Virus record (IMG/VR): IMGVR_UViG_3300032294_000464
Span: 1-25,347 of that record
Reading direction: 5' to 3' (one strand)
Length of the DNA stretch: 25,347 bases
Source of the DNA: a virus
The notes beneath the pieces are model-generated. The model was not told the DNA's origin. It ran no database searches and saw nothing but the letters and a program-made list of their open reading frames with translations. Below are positions 3,374-25,347 of this stretch, piece by piece. Within the stretch, counting starts at the first letter, position 1. Each line of letters opens with the position of its first letter. A program made the translations under genes and the position numbers.

Positions 3374-4105
3374 ATGCCAATTCCTAATACATTAACGTAT
3401 TCTCCATCTTCTAACGGCTGGACTTCGTTCTGGAGTTACAACCCAGATTGGATGTTAGGATTAAATAGTTCATTTTATACATGGAAGTTAGGTCAGCTAT
3501 ACAAGCATGATAGCAATAGTACACGTAATAATTTTTATGGCAGCAACTACGAATCTAAAATAACAACTGTCTTCAATGTAGAGCCTACTCAGAATAAGGT
3601 ATTTAAGACATTGGATTTAGAAAGTACACATCCTTGGAGTGCTACATTTACTACCGACTTAAGTAATGGGTATAATGATGCTAGTTACTTCGTTGAGAAA
3701 GAAGGTTCATGGATGACATATATTCGTAGCGTTGCAGGTACTAATGACAACCATGAATTATATACTCAGGGGTTGGGGCAGGTACTTGGATTGGTTCCTC
3801 CGAACACTATTGAGCTAGCAAATGTTGATAGTAACATTAGTGCAGGAGACTTGTTGTACGTGTACAATACAAACATAAACACACTAACATTAATTGGAAC
3901 GGTAACTAGTAATACAGATACGTCTGTAACTTTTACACTTGTTTCCTCGCCATCAGTTGGTGACTATATCGTATATATTAAAAATAACTTAGCTGAGTCT
4001 TTTGGGCTTAGAGGATACTATATGCAGGTAGAACTCTCTATCCTTGAGTCATCTCCAGTTGAGTTGTTTGAAGCAGCGTCATCAGTATTTAAAAGTTCTC
4101 CTTAA
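3374..4105 (+). CDS. Conserved tail/neck structural protein (Bacteroidetes podophage type)
   Basis: 243 residues. The N-terminal half has the pattern WTSFWSYNPDWMLGLNSSFYTWKLGQLYKH, then NNFYGSNYES, FKTLDLES and a KEGSWMTYIRS motif. The last ~100 residues are beta-rich (a GD-containing repeat) and end in GLRGYYMQVEL...VFKSSP. I recognise this combination from tail/neck (muzzle- or stabilisation-like) proteins of Bacteroidetes podophages, including crAss-like phages; this is from memory and not a database search. It would be part of the particle, probably at the portal/tail junction. It begins 18 bases after the glycosyltransferase stop, right behind a TAnnTTTG promoter. In some related phages this sequence is the C-terminal part of a larger protein; here it is a separate, shorter gene. 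Confidence 0.7.
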   Translation: MPIPNTLTYSPSSNGWTSFWSYNPDWMLGLNSSFYTWKLGQLYKHDSNSTRNNFYGSNYESKITTVFNVEPTQNKVFKTLDLESTHPWSATFTTDLSNGYNDASYFVEKEGSWMTYIRSVAGTNDNHELYTQGLGQVLGLVPPNTIELANVDSNISAGDLLYVYNTNINTLTLIGTVTSNTDTSVTFTLVSSPSVGDYIVYIKNNLAESFGLRGYYMQVELSILESSPVELFEAASSVFKSSP

Positions 4106-4116
4106 AAATTATAGAT

Positions 4117-4719
4117 ATGCCAATAGGACTAATTACAGGTTTAGCAACATCCTTATTAGGAACCGGAATGAGTATTGCTCAGATGGTGCAAGCCAATAAA
4201 GAAAAGAAGGCTGCTCAGAATGCAGCTTTAGCAGCTAAGAAACGAATTGAAGGGATATCTTCAGCTAATCCATTTGCAGAAGAAAAAGTAGCTGACCAAG
4301 GTTATAAGATGGCTATGGACGCTATTAAAAGTGGAACAGCACAAGGTCTTCAAGCGTTGCAAGGTGTTAATGATCCAGCATTATTTTTATCAGGAGTTGG
4401 CAACTTAACCGAAAATGCAAGAGCTGGGGCACTTGAAACAGGAGCTAAATTAGCTGAAGAACAAGCTAATTTATCACAGAGGAGAGCAGATGCGCAAGTT
4501 ATAATGAACAGAGATAAAGAACAAAGGATTGGTGAATTATATGCATCAGAACTTGAAGGCGCTGGATTAGCAGCAGGTACTGCACAAGCAAATAAGAACG
4601 CAGCTATTGGTGGAATATTTGAAAGTGCAGGAAGTGGTCTTGCAGCTGGATTAGGAGCTATTCCAACTTACTTTAAAAATCCAAATTTAGAGAAGTGGTT
4701 TGGAAATACTACCACATAA
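4117..4719 (+). CDS. Internal virion (DNA-ejection type) protein, small
   Basis: 200 residues. It starts with a hydrophobic Gly-rich segment (about residues 1-24, IGLITGLATSLLGTGMSIAQ), followed by a long Ala/Lys/Glu/Gln-rich helical region and a second Gly/Ala hydrophobic stretch near the C-terminus (about 160-185). This build is typical of podophage internal core/ejection proteins such as the T7 gp14 type, which enter the envelope on infection. It lies between the tail/neck gene and two larger internal proteins, in the expected gene order. The start follows an A-rich leader without a Shine-Dalgarno motif. The exact family is not identified; the function is inferred from composition and position. 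Confidence 0.6.
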   Translation: MPIGLITGLATSLLGTGMSIAQMVQANKEKKAAQNAALAAKKRIEGISSANPFAEEKVADQGYKMAMDAIKSGTAQGLQALQGVNDPALFLSGVGNLTENARAGALETGAKLAEEQANLSQRRADAQVIMNRDKEQRIGELYASELEGAGLAAGTAQANKNAAIGGIFESAGSGLAAGLGAIPTYFKNPNLEKWFGNTTT

Positions 4720-6269: not shown

Positions 6270-9200
6270 ATGCCTGGATATAGCGATCAAATATACAACT
6301 ACATTCTTAAATTGGATCCAACATATAAGAATGACGTTTCATTACAAGCGTTTAAATCAAAAATGGCTAACCCAACATATTCACGACAGATATATGATTG
6401 GATAGGGTCTGCTGATGCTACTTTTAAAAGTGATGTTTCATTTGATGCGTTTAGTTCACAAATGGGATATCCAAAAAAAAAAGTCACTACGGCATCTCCT
6501 GGAAGTGGGGCAGCAAAACCTTCTTCTTCGGGGCCGTTGTCGAAGGCAGTTAATGCTGGAGTACAAAAGGTTGTTGCGGCAGCTATCAAACCTGAGGGAT
6601 CTTATAAGTATCCAGGAAGGGAAGATGCGCTATATAAGAAGACAAACAATCAGTGGTATATTGACCTAGGTAAGACAGGTAAGTATGTCAAAATAAATGA
6701 GAAGAATAGGATTGATGCATTAGAGAAATATGCTAAGACATATACTCCTGACATTGTTAAATCCGCTACTCAAGTTGTTAAGGATATAGGGAAGGGTGCT
6801 ACAGAACTTATTTCAAAGACAACACCTCCAACTGCTGCTGAATTACAGAAGGATGTAAAGAAAGAGATTGATTATTTAGAGTCTCAGAAACAATTAAGCA
6901 ACAAAGAAATAGCAGATATATTTGGATGGAACGAATCAGATGTAGAACGAGTTGCAAGTTCATCCAGTAAAAGTACAACGCCTATTACAAAGGCTATGGC
7001 TGCTAATGCTATACCTGTTGTAAAAACAAATACAAGCCAGCCATCAATAGAACAGTTTTCTCAGAATGTTCAAAAGGTAATGAACGATTTAGGTGAAAAT
7101 GCATCTGAAGAGAAAAAACAAGAAAGACTAGAATACTATAACACTAAAGACCTTCAAACATATTTAAAAGGTGAGGGTTACGATGTAGATGTTAATGGTG
7201 ATAAGGAGGATGACAAAACGCAGAAAGCGTTAAAGCATTCTAACATGAAAGAACAAATGTTCATTGAGGACATGTATGAATCAATGGACCAATATGATAG
7301 AGTTTACGGACTAGTAAACGAAAACATGTTGGAGATGAGCGAGGAGGAAGCCGTTCCATTATTGAGGAAGTACTTTGGTAAAGACGGATTTACATTCAAT
7401 GAAACAGGTATTGGAAACTATGTAGAGGTAGTATCTCCAGGAAAAAAGAAACAGGTTTTTGAATTCAATACATCTGATCCTGAGAGCATAAGTAAACTTA
7501 GAGAATTTTTAGGAAATACTTATCTCGCTAAAAATGAGAAGAAAAAATATAATGACTTATTGAATGGAGATGATGTAGATATGAATGACCCTAGAGCTAG
7601 GGATAAATACTTCTATGACCTTACTACATTAATAGGACAGAATCCAGATAAATATGCGGATGTATTGGGTGATCCTGATGATATATTATCTGGAACTCAT
7701 CCAATTAAAAGTGCAATAGATAGAACAGCTTATAATATAAAAGCAGAATCTATTCAGTTGAATAAAGATTACGCAGCATTAAAAACAAGGATTGATAAAT
7801 ACAATGCTAACCCTGAAAAATATGGAAATCAGGAAAGAGCAGCCATTAATAATATTCTACATGACTTAAAGGTAAGAGAATACAATATCCTTAAAGACCA
7901 GAAGAAGATAACATCAATGGATAATTCTTTGAGAAGAATTACCGGAAAAAAAATTATAGAATCAAGAAAAAGTGGAGACTGGGCAGGTGTATTGACATCT
8001 CAGTTCTTTAAAGGAATTACAGCTATTCCATTGCTTTCAACTCAATTAGCAATGGATGCTCTTCCATATGCTGTTGGTGCTGAAAACTTTTTTGATCCAA
8101 TAACATATGATAGGTTAAAGACAATAGATGGATATAATGATTTAGAGATACAAGACTTAGGTGTCAAGAAATTAAAGCAAACCATTTATGGAGATATAGA
8201 AAGAGGTATATCAAATGTAGCTTCTTTTGGAACTACTACTCCTGAATATGTAAGTGACCCTGAACGCAATGACATTTTAAAAGGAGTGTCATTTATGGCT
8301 GAATCTGTTGGTACAGCAATGGCCGGTGGAGGAAGTGGAACGCTACAGAAGCTTGGATTCTTTGCCATGTCGTATAATGGTATGGAAAAAGAAATGATGG
8401 ACCCTCGTTTTGACGATATGTCAGAAACAGAGAAGAAGTTATATTCTGTACCATATGGTTTTGTTATTGGGGCATTAGAACGTTTTGGATATAATGCTCT
8501 TTCAGGAGGAGATAAATCTATAGTTAATAGATTAGCTTCAGGAGTTATAGGAAGAACATTGGCAGGCCTACCTAAAGACGCTACTATATCAACAATCAAA
8601 AGAGAAATCAATAAGAACGTTGGTAGAATGGTTGCTGACGGTGTTATCAACGTAGCAGGTGGAGCAGTAGCAGAAGGATCTACAGAGGCATTACAAAGAG
8701 TATTCGAAGTAGGAGAAAAGTATGCTATAAATCAGATTAAAGATAAAGAATACTTTCAAGGTATACCTGACATCACTACTTGGGAAGGTATTAAGAAAAC
8801 ATATGATTTAGCTAAGGAGGATTTCTATTACGCTGCAATTGGATCATTGGTGTTCTCAAGTGGTGTTAATTCAGTTCAGACTATGCAACAGTATAGGTTT
8901 AATAAAAAGACTGATGCTGAGTTTGATGTGCTATACAATAGTGTGTCCAATCCATTCTTGAGGAACATGACTGAGTTGGATATCAAGAGCAGGTTGGCTA
9001 AAGGAGAGATGACAAAAGAAGAGGCAGCAAGTCAAATCCAAGCGTTGAAGGATGTTGCCGGAAGACTTTCAAGAGTAAATCCTAATTTATCTTTGCGAGA
9101 CAAGAAAGATTCATTTAACTTAATACTCGAAAAAGAAAAGTTAGAAAAAGAAAAAGCTCCATTGGATGAGGCTTTACAAGCACCATACAATGAGAGAATA

Positions 9201-12200
9201 GCTGAAATAAATAACGAACTTAAAACAATAGCACAAAATGCCTTTCAAGAGCAAACAACAAGTGAAGTACCTGTTCAGCCAGAAGCCGCAGTTAGCGGAG
9301 AAATGGCGCAAGGAGTACCCCAAGCAGAACCTCAAGTCACTACCCAAGAAGGTGGGCAAGCAGTCCAAGAAGAAGTAAGGCCTATAGAAGAGGCGACTGC
9401 AAAAGCTCAAGAAGAAGTAGAGTCATATATTGTAGACAGGTTTAGGAATCTAAAACTAGAACCTGTAATAGATCCTCTTCTTAATAAAATGAATAATGCT
9501 GAGTATATTGATGATGCGGATATAGATAACGCATTAGAGATTATATTCAAAGAACTTGATGATATAGATAACTCAGAGTATTCAGACAATGTAAAAACTA
9601 ATGTTAAAGACAGCCTATTGAACTTGGCTGAAAAATTAGATAACTATGAATTTAGAACAAAGGATAAGACTGTCACAGTTGCCCAAAAGAGAGCAGCTGA
9701 TAGCACTAGAGAAAATGTACAAAAAGTTAAAGTCGAAGAGTTCTTCTCAGGAGCAAAAGCCATCCACAATGGAGAAGAAGTAGAATTTGATACTACTAAG
9801 GGTGTAGTAGAAGCCAAGCTTCCAAATGGAAATACCATTGTATTTGATACTCCATCGATGGAAGTAAAAGAAGATGGTATAGTTATAGGAGATGATGGAA
9901 ATCTATCTACTGTAACTATGGTTGATAGGTTTGGTAGTGAGTTCACATTTGATGGTGATATAGCATTAGATTTAGCAATAAAAGATAGACAGAATAAAAT
10001 AGGTGAAATACCACCTCCTGTCTTTGATATTGTAATGGAAGAGATGACTGTTAAGGAGCCTTATATTAAAGAGCGAACAGTACAACCTCAACCAACAGTT
10101 GAACCAACAGTAGAAACAGAAGTTACTCCTGTAGCTGAAGCACAGCCAACTATTGAGGCGCAACCTACAGAAGCACAACCAGTAGAAACACAACCGGTAG
10201 CTACTGAGGAAGAAGTTGATCAAGAGTTAGAAGCATTAAGAACGTTACTTCAAGGTACAGACGAACAGATTGATGAACAGGTATCCGGATTGGATATATC
10301 AAACCGTAACGATAAGGTTGCTGAGAATATAGCAAATGCAGCTAAAACGATATCTAGAATACTTCCTAATGTAGAGTTTATTGTTCACGATACTGAAGAG
10401 TCTTATAGACAAGCAACAGGAAATAATGCAAGAGGTACATATATACCCGAAGAGGGAGATACTAAACCTCAGATACACATTAACTCTAAAAAAGCAAACA
10501 ACAGAACAGCTGCACATGAAGTATTCCATGCTGTACTGTTGAACGCTGTAAAAAGTAATGAAGAGGCTCAGAGGTTAACAAAGAGCATGATCAATGCTGT
10601 CATGAAGTCTATGTCCAATATTGAAGGACAACAAGGATTAAAGAAATATCTTTATGACTTCGCAGATAACTATGAGTATAACGTAAGGGATGAAGAAAAG
10701 CTTGCAGAACTTTTGGGTGTACTTGCTACTAACTATAAAAACTTAGAAGCACCATCTAAAAATATCATCAAAAGATTCTTCGAAAGAATAGCTAAGTTGA
10801 TAGGTTTAAAACCTATGACAGATAGAGAAGTTGTAGACTTCATGAACACAATGGCAGATGCCTTGTATAAAGGTGAGGTTTTAACTAAGAGAGATATTGC
10901 TATGCTTCCTAAGCCTAGGAAGAAAAGTATATCAAACATTATTAAACGTTTCCAATCTGACTTCTCAGATGCATTCTCTAAGTTATCATTTGTATATGAC
11001 AAGAATGGAGAGGAGTTCAACAAGTTAGAAAAACAAGGATATATAACCAAAGACAAATCGTTATCTGACTTCAATGGTAAGTATATGTTCTTGCATCAGC
11101 CTGATGCAGCATTCTCCGGAATGATTTATAAAGATGGAGAGATTCTAGTTGAGGGTAAGGGAGGTGTGTTCTATCCTATAAAATTCCACAAGGATGGATA
11201 CTTCTGGGCAAGTACAGATAAGACAGCTAGTAAAATGGCTGAAGACTTAAACAAAGTATTTGAACAAAATGGTGGTGTTATTTATATGGCACTTACTTCT
11301 GCTCCTTATGACAAATTGTTATCAAGTACTACAATGTCCAATGCTGTTCTTGATTTCTTTTCATCTAAGGCATTTGATAAAAACTTCAAAATAACTGAGA
11401 ATCAATTTAAGGTAGCACTTAGAAATGCAGCTAATAACTTTGTCATTAAAACAGTGAAGAATGATGACGGAAAAGTTGTTTCTAAAAAGGTTGGTCTACA
11501 GCTAAACTTACCTGGTAATACTACGATTGCAGAGATGAAATCTGCAATAAAAGAAAAATTAAATCCAGACAATAGTTCTTTTGCTGACAGAAAAGAATTT
11601 GTTTTAGAGCTAATAAAATTAATGGCAGCTCAGATAAACAAAAATGATGTATCAATAGAACAATTTGGAAAGTTATTTTCTCAAGGTATTCAGAATAAAT
11701 ACTTTAAAGGAATTACTAAGACAGGTAAAGTATCTATATCTGCTGCAAATATGAGGCAAGCACTTTCTGAAATGCTTACTGAGCCTATATTAAAAGAAGA
11801 TATAGAAAGAAGTAAAGGAGGGCAAGTTTATGCTGTACTAGAATTAACCGGAAAGGTTAAAGGTGTTGACTCAGACAAACATGAGTCTTATCCAAAAGCA
11901 ATTCAATCTGAGGATGCTAATAACAAAGTAACTCTTCATATACTTAAAGACAGATTAAAATGGTCAGATGTATTTGAAGACTTTGAAACAAATAAAATTG
12001 TAGCTAAGGATAGATATCTAAAAGTTTATCCAACTAGTGGTGTATCTGTTAGAGGGTTAAAACTAAATACCGGTAAGATTACACCTCGACAACAACAGCC
12101 AGGTCAAAACATTAATCAAATTGTAACAACGGCAAGGAACAATAATTTCTCTGATGCAACTATTGAAAAGTTATTAAAGCAACAAGGATATACTGATGCA

Positions 12201-15140
12201 GAAATACAATCAGCTCTTACTGCTCCTAGAACTACCTTAGGAATAGATGAGATATTCAATAGAAGTAATCAAGCTCTTCAAAGACAATACGATACTCCTG
12301 CATATAAGCGTGCGTTAAGGTATGCCAATAAGATGATATTTGAACGCCAGGAAGCAATCAAAAGATTGATGAGAGGAATTAAGAATAAAGATGCATCTAG
12401 GGCGTACAACATGTTAATCAATAAAGCTGGTGCTACAGGTTTTGCAAGTACTAGATTTAAAGAAGCAGATAGAAAAATATATGGTCGATTAGGTGGTAAA
12501 ACTCCTATACAAAGAAAAGAGAATAGGGATGATTTAGATAAGATGATATACCTAAGAAGGTTTATTGCCATCAACGAAAACCTAAGAAAGAAAGGCGAAG
12601 AACCTTATATTGGTATGGGTGGATTTAATGAAGAAAAAGCAAGAGAAGGATTACAAAAAATAAAAGAAAGAATAGGAGAGAAAAAGTTTGAAAAATTCAG
12701 CAAAAGAGCCGACATATACTTTAATGAGTATAAGGAAAATTTAAAGATGTTGTATGAGTCTGGAAGAATTAATAAAGAAACATACGAAAACTTTAAAGAT
12801 ATAGAGTACTCTCCTATTAAAGTTATTAAGTATATCATTGATGATAATGCAGACCCTAGTGAAGTTGATACTCAAGCTGCTAAGTTAGGTATAAACAGAA
12901 AAGATATAATGAAACTTGGTAAACTAAATGAGAATGCTATAGTGTTCGATTCTAGGTGGTTACTAATGTTAAATATTCATACAGTAGCAGCAAGAGCATT
13001 TGAAAACGATATGCTAAGTTCTTTTGCAAAGGCAATAGATGAAGGTACAGAGGAAGAGCGTGAAGCTGTAGATCCATATATTAAAGCAAATCCTACCATA
13101 GGATCTAAGCAAGATGGAACACCAAAACAGAAGTATAACATGATGAATACTCCTGTAGGGTATACTGCTGTTAGTTATTTTGATAATGGAATACAAAAAA
13201 CATTAGTAGTTAAGGATGAGTATGCACAACAGCTTTTAGATATTAAAAATCTAGACTCATCACTTAGGTTTTTGTCTGCAATGACTCTAGGTAATGTACT
13301 TAGGTATTTTGCAACTGTAGGTAACCCGCTATTTATTATTGGTAACGTACCTGTAGATATTGTGAACGCTGCATTCTTTACAGATGTATATAGTCCTTTT
13401 AAACCTCTTGCTGTGCTTCAGGCAAGTACTGGTTTCTCATATAGATTTTTACAAGGAATAGCATATGATGTAGCTCCACTATATGAAGGAATAAGAAGAA
13501 TATTTAATAAAGATTACGATAAAGAAAGAAGAAACAAATTTTTATATGAGTTTGTAAGTCATGGTGGAACTGTAGATACTCTACATAGACAAGGGCTTAG
13601 GCCTCTAGAAAGAAACATGTTTCTTACTGGAACTAAAAAAGCAATAAATGATACCTTATTAAATACAGGTAGAGCCACTTCTTATTTGGGTTCTAAATCA
13701 GAAATTGCAATGAGGCTTGCTGTATATGCTAAACGTAAAAGAAATCTTATTGCTGAGTTTAAGAAAGAAAATAATGGAGAATCACCACAGGGACAAGAAC
13801 TTGATGATATCATGTGGGAAGCTGCAAGAGAGGGTCGAGAACTTATAGACTTTAGTCAAGGAGGTGAATTCATTAAAAAAGCAGATCAAGTTATTCCATA
13901 TCTAAATGCAGCTGTACAGGGATTAAGAAAGCAAGGTAGATTTGCTGTAGAAAATAAAATTCTTTTCGCATCCAATGTGCTACAAGGAATGGGAATGTTT
14001 GCAGGAATAGCAGCATACTCTTTAGCAAATGCTTATGCAGCAGCAAGTGATGAGGAAGAAGACAAAGACAAACAAAACCAAATGGTAATAGATACTCTTG
14101 ATTCAATATCTGAACATGAGAAATCACAGTACCATATTATATTTACCGGTAAAAAGAAAAAAGAAAACGGAAAAACTATACTTCAATATGTAAGGATTAA
14201 GAAACTTCCTTTCTTCTCAATTGCTACTACATATGCAGAACAATTTGCAATGAGGTACTGGATAAATAAAAACGGTGGTAAATATGACATTGATAACAAA
14301 CTTATTAAGTTAGTTATGGAAAAATCAATGCCACTACTTCCATCAGAGGTTGCATCAAGAAATCCAATGGTTGCAGCGTTAGTAGCATACAACTTTAACT
14401 ATGATTTCTTTACTAAAAAAGAAGTATTTAGAAATAAAGAAAAACTAAATATTAATCCAATATATGAAGGCATAGAAGACGATAAAGTAGAGGACTTCTT
14501 TAAAGTAATTGCTCCAGCATTAGGTATGTCACCTAAAAGAACGAAAGCAGCTGTTGAGAAGATTATTACATCTCCATCCACAAATCCATTGGTTCACGTA
14601 TTATATGGAGCAATGAATGGTATATTCTCTGATAAAACCGAACTTTCGGAGGATGTTAAGGTTGCAGGTGACATGATACTTGAGTCAGCAGAAAAGAAAA
14701 TGGTTCGTTATACTGATCCTGAAATACTTAGATACGTTCGTGAAGATAGAGATAAAGAAGAACAGATGAGAATACGTTCTGAAATATATCAAAGAGAACA
14801 GAAGGTAAATAAAATAATAAAAGATAAACTAGAGAAGAACGAAAAGTATACAAGTCAAGAATTAATGAAAATTGTTGAGGAGAACTTCCCTAAATATGAT
14901 AGAGAAAAATACTTTAAAAAGTATAAGACTAGAATGATGTTCCCTGATCTTGATAAACAAGTATTGGATATTGTTTATGAAGAAACTCCAGAAATACAGG
15001 CTCAAAAGCTATGGAGTAAGTATGGAAACTCTCTAGAGGAGGATGAAAAATCTGAATTGATTAAAGTAATGAGATCAATCAATAAAAAGATATCTCCAAA
15101 AGTATTTAGAATTTACAATGAAAAATACAAGAACAGATAA
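6270..15140 (+). CDS. Giant polyvalent internal virion protein (zincin motif, PG-binding-like, LPD-type domains)
   Basis: 2956 residues, a third of the window. In order: two ~34-aa tandem repeats (about 4-69; YS.QIY..I...D.T.K.DVS..AF.S.M); a small Y/W-rich module (112-158); a peptidoglycan-binding-like segment (295-325, LQTYLKGEGYDVDVNGD...TQKAL); hydrophobic Gly/Ala-rich stretches (about 571-603, 669-700, 785-870); a charged helical region (about 930-995); a Pro/Glu/Gln linker (about 998-1050); a beta domain (about 1150-1240); a second P/E/T/Q linker (1270-1324). Next is a metallopeptidase motif H1416-E-V-F-H1420, with E1480 a candidate third ligand. An LPD-like beta domain (about 1580-1700) and a helical LPD38-like region (NPLFIIGN at 2352, DFSQGGEF at 2527, hydrophobic 2567-2592) follow, then a charged tail. 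It is probably injected with the DNA and crosses the envelope. No DxDGD polymerase motif was seen. The ejection role is inferred. Confidence 0.75.
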   Translation: MPGYSDQIYNYILKLDPTYKNDVSLQAFKSKMANPTYSRQIYDWIGSADATFKSDVSFDAFSSQMGYPKKKVTTASPGSGAAKPSSSGPLSKAVNAGVQKVVAAAIKPEGSYKYPGREDALYKKTNNQWYIDLGKTGKYVKINEKNRIDALEKYAKTYTPDIVKSATQVVKDIGKGATELISKTTPPTAAELQKDVKKEIDYLESQKQLSNKEIADIFGWNESDVERVASSSSKSTTPITKAMAANAIPVVKTNTSQPSIEQFSQNVQKVMNDLGENASEEKKQERLEYYNTKDLQTYLKGEGYDVDVNGDKEDDKTQKALKHSNMKEQMFIEDMYESMDQYDRVYGLVNENMLEMSEEEAVPLLRKYFGKDGFTFNETGIGNYVEVVSPGKKKQVFEFNTSDPESISKLREFLGNTYLAKNEKKKYNDLLNGDDVDMNDPRARDKYFYDLTTLIGQNPDKYADVLGDPDDILSGTHPIKSAIDRTAYNIKAESIQLNKDYAALKTRIDKYNANPEKYGNQERAAINNILHDLKVREYNILKDQKKITSMDNSLRRITGKKIIESRKSGDWAGVLTSQFFKGITAIPLLSTQLAMDALPYAVGAENFFDPITYDRLKTIDGYNDLEIQDLGVKKLKQTIYGDIERGISNVASFGTTTPEYVSDPERNDILKGVSFMAESVGTAMAGGGSGTLQKLGFFAMSYNGMEKEMMDPRFDDMSETEKKLYSVPYGFVIGALERFGYNALSGGDKSIVNRLASGVIGRTLAGLPKDATISTIKREINKNVGRMVADGVINVAGGAVAEGSTEALQRVFEVGEKYAINQIKDKEYFQGIPDITTWEGIKKTYDLAKEDFYYAAIGSLVFSSGVNSVQTMQQYRFNKKTDAEFDVLYNSVSNPFLRNMTELDIKSRLAKGEMTKEEAASQIQALKDVAGRLSRVNPNLSLRDKKDSFNLILEKEKLEKEKAPLDEALQAPYNERIAEINNELKTIAQNAFQEQTTSEVPVQPEAAVSGEMAQGVPQAEPQVTTQEGGQAVQEEVRPIEEATAKAQEEVESYIVDRFRNLKLEPVIDPLLNKMNNAEYIDDADIDNALEIIFKELDDIDNSEYSDNVKTNVKDSLLNLAEKLDNYEFRTKDKTVTVAQKRAADSTRENVQKVKVEEFFSGAKAIHNGEEVEFDTTKGVVEAKLPNGNTIVFDTPSMEVKEDGIVIGDDGNLSTVTMVDRFGSEFTFDGDIALDLAIKDRQNKIGEIPPPVFDIVMEEMTVKEPYIKERTVQPQPTVEPTVETEVTPVAEAQPTIEAQPTEAQPVETQPVATEEEVDQELEALRTLLQGTDEQIDEQVSGLDISNRNDKVAENIANAAKTISRILPNVEFIVHDTEESYRQATGNNARGTYIPEEGDTKPQIHINSKKANNRTAAHEVFHAVLLNAVKSNEEAQRLTKSMINAVMKSMSNIEGQQGLKKYLYDFADNYEYNVRDEEKLAELLGVLATNYKNLEAPSKNIIKRFFERIAKLIGLKPMTDREVVDFMNTMADALYKGEVLTKRDIAMLPKPRKKSISNIIKRFQSDFSDAFSKLSFVYDKNGEEFNKLEKQGYITKDKSLSDFNGKYMFLHQPDAAFSGMIYKDGEILVEGKGGVFYPIKFHKDGYFWASTDKTASKMAEDLNKVFEQNGGVIYMALTSAPYDKLLSSTTMSNAVLDFFSSKAFDKNFKITENQFKVALRNAANNFVIKTVKNDDGKVVSKKVGLQLNLPGNTTIAEMKSAIKEKLNPDNSSFADRKEFVLELIKLMAAQINKNDVSIEQFGKLFSQGIQNKYFKGITKTGKVSISAANMRQALSEMLTEPILKEDIERSKGGQVYAVLELTGKVKGVDSDKHESYPKAIQSEDANNKVTLHILKDRLKWSDVFEDFETNKIVAKDRYLKVYPTSGVSVRGLKLNTGKITPRQQQPGQNINQIVTTARNNNFSDATIEKLLKQQGYTDAEIQSALTAPRTTLGIDEIFNRSNQALQRQYDTPAYKRALRYANKMIFERQEAIKRLMRGIKNKDASRAYNMLINKAGATGFASTRFKEADRKIYGRLGGKTPIQRKENRDDLDKMIYLRRFIAINENLRKKGEEPYIGMGGFNEEKAREGLQKIKERIGEKKFEKFSKRADIYFNEYKENLKMLYESGRINKETYENFKDIEYSPIKVIKYIIDDNADPSEVDTQAAKLGINRKDIMKLGKLNENAIVFDSRWLLMLNIHTVAARAFENDMLSSFAKAIDEGTEEEREAVDPYIKANPTIGSKQDGTPKQKYNMMNTPVGYTAVSYFDNGIQKTLVVKDEYAQQLLDIKNLDSSLRFLSAMTLGNVLRYFATVGNPLFIIGNVPVDIVNAAFFTDVYSPFKPLAVLQASTGFSYRFLQGIAYDVAPLYEGIRRIFNKDYDKERRNKFLYEFVSHGGTVDTLHRQGLRPLERNMFLTGTKKAINDTLLNTGRATSYLGSKSEIAMRLAVYAKRKRNLIAEFKKENNGESPQGQELDDIMWEAAREGRELIDFSQGGEFIKKADQVIPYLNAAVQGLRKQGRFAVENKILFASNVLQGMGMFAGIAAYSLANAYAAASDEEEDKDKQNQMVIDTLDSISEHEKSQYHIIFTGKKKKENGKTILQYVRIKKLPFFSIATTYAEQFAMRYWINKNGGKYDIDNKLIKLVMEKSMPLLPSEVASRNPMVAALVAYNFNYDFFTKKEVFRNKEKLNINPIYEGIEDDKVEDFFKVIAPALGMSPKRTKAAVEKIITSPSTNPLVHVLYGAMNGIFSDKTELSEDVKVAGDMILESAEKKMVRYTDPEILRYVREDRDKEEQMRIRSEIYQREQKVNKIIKDKLEKNEKYTSQELMKIVEENFPKYDREKYFKKYKTRMMFPDLDKQVLDIVYEETPEIQAQKLWSKYGNSLEEDEKSELIKVMRSINKKISPKVFRIYNEKYKNR

Positions 15141-24370: not shown

Positions 24371-24402
24371 GTTACGCATAGCCATGAGTTACCTGCAAGT
24401 GC
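24371..24402 (+). repeat. Left flanking repeat of the methyltransferase cassette
   Basis: On the + strand it reads GTTACGCATAGCCATGA then GTTACCTGCAAGTGC. An inverted, imperfect copy lies at 25219-25246 and a direct, imperfect copy at 25321-25343. It abuts the methyltransferase stop codon. Confidence 0.55.
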
Positions 24403-25127
24403 TACATTTCGTTTCCAAATAGAGTTCCTGCTTGTAAATCTTTTTCTTTTCTTTTTTCTCCCACCTTTTCTAAAATGGTATTTTCTTTTTCTTTATCAAT
24501 TTCTGAAATTATGCAATCAATTCCATTCTGTTTGCACACTTTCATTGTAGTTCCACTTCCTCCAAATGGGTCATAAACTACATTCGGTTTGTTAGGTATT
24601 GCATCAAGTATATTTTGAACAATCCCATCAGGCATTACCGCTATGTGGTTTTGGTCTTTTCTTTGGTGCGTTGGTACTAATCTCCATACATCAGATAAAG
24701 AATTTTTATTCAGCAATTTTACTTTTGGGTTTTTAGTTAGCCAATAAATCCTTTCTGAAAATGGAAAGAAACGTATTTTGTCGCAATTCGCACTTTTACC
24801 CATATCCCAAGTAATTTCTTGCTTAATAACAAAATCAGTTTTCAAAAGCCATTCCATTGGGTGTATTGCTTTACCATCTTTTATTCTTACTTTATGGTTG
24901 TAAAACATACTTCCATTTTCAGAAAGCACTCTATAACATTCATTTAATACTTCAATTTGCCATTTTTGATAATCGTGTTCTTTCATATCATTGTTGGCAT
25001 AACTCCCAAATTGCAATCGGTTACTGTGCATTTTGCCTATGTTGTAAGGCGGTGAAGTAATAATCAAATCAATGTTATTATCTTCAAATCGTTTCAATGT
25101 TTCTTCACAAGGTTCTATATAAATCAT
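24402..25127 (-). CDS. Orphan DNA methyltransferase, beta class (N4-cytosine or N6-adenine)
   Basis: 241 residues, compact. Motif IV T24-S-P-P-Y28 near the N-terminus and motif I D186-P-F-G-G-S-G-T-T in the C-terminal third give the beta-class order, in which the catalytic motif precedes the AdoMet site. A region between them (about 85-160) is the probable target recognition part. Motif IV TSPPYN suits m4C or m6A; the sequence does not decide. No restriction enzyme gene is seen nearby, so it is an orphan enzyme that could protect phage DNA from host restriction or regulate genes. Its coding sequence looks AT-richer than the replication genes beside it, and it is bracketed by short repeats, which suggests acquisition by transfer. 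Confidence 0.9.
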   Translation of the reverse strand: MIYIEPCEETLKRFEDNNIDLIITSPPYNIGKMHSNRLQFGSYANNDMKEHDYQKWQIEVLNECYRVLSENGSMFYNHKVRIKDGKAIHPMEWLLKTDFVIKQEITWDMGKSANCDKIRFFPFSERIYWLTKNPKVKLLNKNSLSDVWRLVPTHQRKDQNHIAVMPDGIVQNILDAIPNKPNVVYDPFGGSGTTMKVCKQNGIDCIISEIDKEKENTILEKVGEKRKEKDLQAGTLFGNEM

Positions 25128-25218
25128 ATTTTTAATTTTTCAAATTAATATTTGCCATAGCACAAAAAAGAAAAGAAAAAGCGTTTGTGTTCCAATTCAA
25201 GTTTTGTGGTAATAATCC

Positions 25219-25246
25219 GCACCAGCAGGTAACACGTGCTATACGC
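25219..25246 (-). repeat. Inverted copy of the methyltransferase flanking repeat
   Basis: GCACCAGCAGGTAAC at 25219-25233 is the reverse complement of GTTACCTGCAAGTGC (24388-24402) at 13 of 15 positions; similarity continues outward through ATAGC. It places the methyltransferase inside imperfect inverted repeats. Confidence 0.6.
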
Positions 25247-25268
25247 CATTAAAACGAGCGTATAGCAC
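25236..25268. repeat. Perfect 11-bp inverted repeat (hairpin)
   Basis: GTGCTATACGC at 25236-25246 pairs exactly with GCGTATAGCAC at 25258-25268 around an 11-base loop. No T-run follows on either strand, so it does not look like a terminator. It may be a recombination or protein-binding site. Confidence 0.8.
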
Positions 25269-25320
25269 CATACGTTATAAGAAATGCAGTCGCTTGGGTC
25301 GCTCAATCCAATTAACACTC

Positions 25321-25343
25321 GTTACGCTATACAGATGCACCTG
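25321..25343 (+). repeat. Direct copy of the methyltransferase flanking repeat
   Basis: GTTACGCTATACAGATG followed by CACCTGC resembles bases 24371-24396 in the same orientation with a few gaps. If real, it bounds a unit of about 950 bases carrying the methyltransferase. The copy runs close to the window edge, so its full extent is not visible. Confidence 0.45.
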
Positions 25344-25347
25344 CCGA

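Follow-up and report, generated by a model that had tools for sequence, protein, structure and literature searches.

A DNA methyltransferase gene in a probable integron-type cassette of a phage likely to infect Bacteroidetes

A DNA methyltransferase gene bounded by related repeats at the edge of a phage contig raises the question of what kind of unit the repeats delimit, and by what means that unit may have moved. The locus lies at the end of positions 1 to 25,347 of the IMG/VR virus record IMGVR_UViG_3300032294_000464, a 25,347-nucleotide stretch of DNA that is called the window throughout. The gene (24402-25127, minus strand) encodes a 241-aa protein of the N6_N4_Mtase family (PF01555, E 2.4e-31; phrog_67, E 8e-41) with the motifs TSPPY and FGGSGT. 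It is the only sizeable gene-like ORF with a family match in the unit, and no transposase was found between the terminal inverted repeats. The methyltransferase fits the orphan phage N6_N4 class, as the neighboring ORFs of 73, 135, and 185 aa have no endonuclease match, the other side being cut by the contig end. The evidence presented here makes it very probable that the unit is an integron-type gene cassette residing in a phage that probably infects Bacteroidetes.

The attC site beside the methyltransferase gene

Upstream of the gene, the minus strand at 25225-25281 is an attC site with the R''-L''-loop-L'-R' hairpin architecture and its unequal spacers. Specifically, the R'' box TTATAAC (25274-25280) is followed by a 5-nt spacer, L'' (25258-25268), the loop TCGTTTTAATG (25247-25257), L' (25236-25246), a 2-nt spacer, and the R' box GTTACCT (25227-25233). 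A covariance model, built with the window left out from 15 sites in other contigs and two public phage genomes, matched the site at 76.6 bits (E 8.2e-22) in the sense of the gene versus 16.5 bits on the opposite strand; since the reference sites were picked by a pattern that included the loop and the GTT/AAC cores, the model describes this attC lineage rather than attC sites generally. In the reference structure, 12 pairs show changes on both sides, and its covariation score was equalled by none of 500 shuffles and lay far above that of slid versions. An “ATAGC block” recorded in the first-pass annotation proved real, forming the perfect 11-bp hairpin GTGCTATACGC / GCGTATAGCAC of the two L arms (25236-25268; folding z-score about -4 on both strands). 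The two R boxes retain the GTT and AAC cores while departing from the full GTTRRRY/RYYYAAC consensus, and GTTAGGC serves as R' in other cassettes of the same arrays.

This intact site, the only one in the window, would close an earlier, mostly unseen cassette, and its R' box starts the methyltransferase cassette; the contig end falls inside the array. A frame whose 3' end spans 25275-25346 on the minus strand, RQVHLYSVTSVNWIERPKRLHFL, runs without interruption from the contig end until a stop within the R'' box and probably belongs to that preceding cassette; no homologue of it was found. The same frame covers 25321-25343, where a third, direct copy of the repeat had been proposed. That copy did not hold up: its alignment to the left element is weak (random-window p about 0.006 and shuffle p about 0.01, both before correction for the search), and neither 25321-25343 nor 24371-24402 gave a significant match to the attC model. 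Elsewhere in the window, a model match at 3408 (E 0.32) lies within an ORF and was taken as chance. An Rfam search of the region returned no meaningful match, and no similar repeat was found in a plasmid collection.

Boundaries and the joint change of both ends

Homology delimits the cassette, from R' to R'' box, at 24388-25233 on the minus strand, giving about 846 bp in place of the roughly 950 bases first estimated, with the predicted crossover G|TT between 25233 and 25232. Its 5' untranslated leader, beginning GTTACCTGCTGGTGCGG (25128-25232), is of a type common to cassettes with other modification genes. The 3' end, GCACTTGCAGGTAAC (24388-24402), includes the R'' box and is complementary at 13 of 15 positions to the 5' end, GTTACCTGCTGGTGC (25219-25233). 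The inverted left/right pair described earlier, GTTACCTGCAAGTGC and GCACCAGCAGGTAAC, was thereby confirmed, and no 15-mer as similar occurs elsewhere in the window or in any of 20 shuffles. The left “copy” itself consists of the R'' box that belongs to the cassette together with half an attC site, the remaining part of which (24376-24387) was recognized by sequence comparison as the 5-nt spacer TCATG and an L''-like GCTATGC, with the loop, L', and R' missing.

The boundaries are seen most clearly in an unrelated phage, L006, whose methyltransferase region has 91.8% DNA identity to the window. The alignment runs from 25234 to 24388 and reaches no farther than the R' and R'' boxes; the flanking sequences show no homology, which upholds the earlier view that a repeat-bounded methyltransferase cassette moves among phages. 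A second phage cassette, in L005, has the same 5' edge as the window; on the 3' side the aligner overran the box at little identity, with divergence right after GCAGGTAA. The single gene, the order of gene then attC, and the boundaries at R boxes all fit the assignment of a methyltransferase cassette.

Across phages, the two cassette ends change in step (GTTATAAGC/GCTTATAAC, GTTAGTGGC/GCCACTAAC, and GTTACCTGC/GCAGGTAAC), as they do in the Polaribacter phage P12002L (GTTGTATG/CATACAAC). This covariation, together with the boundary data, already contradicts the idea of an ordinary phage methyltransferase gene that happens to lie next to transcription terminators or chance repeats. A hairpin next to a gene can of course be a terminator, and free-standing phage methyltransferases are common; yet conserved boxes with unequal 5-nt and 2-nt spacers, the recurrence of the same ends beside unrelated genes, and the occurrence of such sites in arrays leave that reading highly improbable.

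How the cassette may move

Movement of an integron-type cassette would proceed through an excised circle, in which base pairing between the two ends would create the outer stem of its attC. Such circles would then enter attC-like sites through the action of a tyrosine recombinase supplied in trans, most likely an integron integrase of the host. Between the window and L006, both ends differ together while the genes are about 92% identical, and replacement of the attC in the circle stage is the simplest account that we can infer for this. The earlier interpretation is supported in part: the mechanism is very probably integron attC recombination rather than that of a generic repeat-bounded unit, and the supposed third repeat becomes superfluous.

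Only R'', the 5-nt spacer, and the L''-like block are left of the downstream attC, a half site that suggests simple excision of the cassette is now impaired or at least doubtful. The downstream attC is apparently truncated in L005, L018, L070, and L087 as well. A possible, if rather doubtful, alternative is that the cassette, having arrived by attC recombination, has become an immobile relic and now spreads among phages through ordinary homologous recombination in the leader, tail, and attC sequences that cassettes have in common. The repeated truncation and the lack of an integrase in this phage and its relatives would both suit such a history; however, the boundaries fall exactly at R boxes with outer flanks that share no homology, and the joint change of both ends between the window and L006 is not readily given by exchange in a linear array. 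As a separate observation, the tails of the window (24376-24387), L018, L070, and L087 share a pattern of R'', 5 nt, eight bases ending in CG, and then YAAY. A viral scan with this truncated-tail motif yielded three new contigs in which the matches lay inside coding sequence without a cassette, so that it remains a weak observation.

With respect to the recombinase, the window contains no match to TIGR02249 or PF00589, and no PF00589 gene was found in relatives of 58, 26, 66, and 61 kb; the window is therefore not a complete integron, being without an intI gene. Searches for IntI in the cassette-bearing records gave matches below the family cut-off only, as was likewise the case in all 14 control genomes. 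Several other cassette-bearing phages do possess Xer-like tyrosine recombinases, and in two phage contigs these lie directly 3' of the methyltransferase cassette (L005, L097; L136:3360-4223 (-), L138:8974-9777 (-)). A phage-encoded Xer-like enzyme might accordingly be the mover, as its position in L005 and L097 and its presence in some other cassette-bearing viral contigs would indicate. We consider this improbable, given that most of 29 viral records have no such match, that the window and its relatives are without a PF00589 gene, and that temperate phages carry such enzymes anyway. The Xer-like recombinases scored below the integron-integrase cut-off, with the model stretch at about 180-240 unmatched. 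A host integron integrase acting in trans is favored as the most likely agent.

The phage and its relatives

Primase matches to phages of Flavobacterium, Polaribacter, Nonlabens, Cellulophaga, and Bacteroides make a Bacteroidetes host likely. Among 14 relatives found in viral contigs, no copy of the gene was seen wherever the site was readable, in keeping with part of what the first-pass annotation had anticipated, although a clean empty site was not obtained, as the window's contig stops within the array and the nearest relatives either end before the site or are too diverged. The two closest (L021 and L024) end at window 23946 and 24044, short of the cassette site. A more distant one, the 66-kb contig L031, carries a homologue of the neighboring 73-aa gene, is too diverged for base-exact comparison, and gave no attC match in the 20.8 kb that was read. 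Conversely, the 61-kb contig L033 has attC-flanked small-ORF cassettes at 3500-4200 in the same early region, which therefore seems to gain and lose cassettes. Two further features of the window may be mentioned: a single 2956-aa ORF at 6270-15140, unusually large for a phage gene, and a long ORF at 3-2447 with several threonine runs between repeat-like domains, perhaps a virion surface protein.

Precedents and the wider pool

Cassettes of this kind have already been published. Integrons or their components have been reported in 21 phages, with five cassette methyltransferases and 17 CALINs among 10,705 phage genomes, and recombination of phage attC sites by IntI1 has been shown experimentally (Qi et al. 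2023; PMC9892861). For P12002L, one of two tested sites was recombined, namely P12002L_attC2 (PMC9892861). The CALIN of this marine flavobacterium phage resembles the window in its methyltransferase cassettes split by attC sites with the loop TCGTTTTAATG, in the tail GCACTTG...AAC and leader CTGGTGCG, and in having no integrase reported beside the cassettes (PMC9892861). By gene content, however, P12002L belongs to a different phage family, and the window has one intact attC plus a half site as opposed to the two or more sites of the CALIN rule, although more may lie beyond the contig end, which falls inside the array. Likewise, the 634-kb uncultured phage LR745206.1 has a nearly identical attC and the same leader, which precedes a D12 methyltransferase, with a C5 methyltransferase in the next cassette; it is a different phage, with a longer array that includes further small genes. 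The cassettes of bacterial chromosomal integrons share the attC architecture, the single gene per cassette, and the gene/attC polarity. Unlike them, the window has no integrase that could be found, its complementary ends reach past the 7-bp R boxes (13 of 15 positions), and its exact cassette start hardly occurs in the 84,980 prokaryote species genomes searched. The window is thus a further phage integron methyltransferase cassette, in another phage lineage.

The same repeat was found around other genes in other genomes, as had been suggested for a mobile unit. Among IMG/VR viral contigs the cassette start TGTTACCTGCTGGTGCGG occurs in 56 stretches, and a further 12 came from the 84,980 prokaryote genomes; as these collections are unlike in size and habitat, counts are given and no rate. 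Of the 12 prokaryote stretches, eight lie outside any attC context and resemble chance matches. The remaining four, MAG contigs with lengths of 3.7 to 44 kb, are assigned to Chitinophagales, “Clostridia”, Bacteroidetes, and “Nitrosotalea”, and may be phage contigs binned with cells: one encodes a phage-type DNA polymerase (L051), another a helicase loader and a pyrophosphatase with phage relatives (L049), and a third has a weak endolysin match (L047). A looser pattern matched one of 298 genomes belonging to the order of the Chitinophagales MAG. A match to phrog_2, which we take to be the large terminase subunit, is present in 13 of the 29 longer viral records that contain either the leader or the looser pattern. 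An origin from a host chromosome, as once proposed, is not supported for a cassette type found almost only in viral contigs.

Among 47 mostly non-redundant ORFs lying behind the leader, Pfam identified N6_N4 methylases (15) and D12 (14), C5 (7), and Mom (4) genes, so that modification genes make up about 40 of the 47, assuming that no protein was counted twice. In cassettes with other R' boxes at the same loci, about 11-12 of 29 are methyltransferases, a difference that reaches nominal significance (Fisher p about 1e-4 or less), although the sequences are related and the sample is non-random. The methyltransferase would act on phage DNA by modifying the sites that restriction enzymes of the host cut. 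It is an evenly balanced prospect that phages, largely of Bacteroidetes, maintain a resident cassette pool with a common frame (the leader GTTACCTGCTGGTGCGG and the tail GCACTTGCAGGTAAC) into which non-homologous N6/N4, D12, C5, and Mom genes are slotted, and that attC recombination lets the phages swap these as anti-restriction modules, for the most part without involving the integron arrays of bacteria.

The usual view is that phages acquire anti-restriction genes through illegitimate or homologous recombination. With a common site-specific cassette system, phages that have no integrase of their own could swap DNA-modification specificities quickly, and the viral-contig data point to a broader phage-borne pool, centered on DNA modification, than the few published cases would indicate. 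Such a pool would make it testable whether host integron integrases provide a gene-exchange service for phages. It is apparently unreported so far: the literature, which was incompletely covered, contained no report of Mom cassettes, of unrelated modification genes within a common frame, or of a concentration in viral contigs, and this is absence of evidence only.

Finally, two observations concern individual cassettes. The frame of the methyltransferase cassettes also surrounds Mom-type DNA-modification genes (PF25680, phrog_1384), at L014:184-903 (-), L066:5802-6434 (+), L058:3100-3819 (-), and L094:3917-4579 (+). The same frame, with the R' box GTTAGTG and a non-methyltransferase gene (phrog_2650), also occurs in L129, a 232-kb contig in a genome from the order of the Chitinophagales MAG; this contig sits in a cellular assembly and represents either a prophage or a true bacterial cassette.
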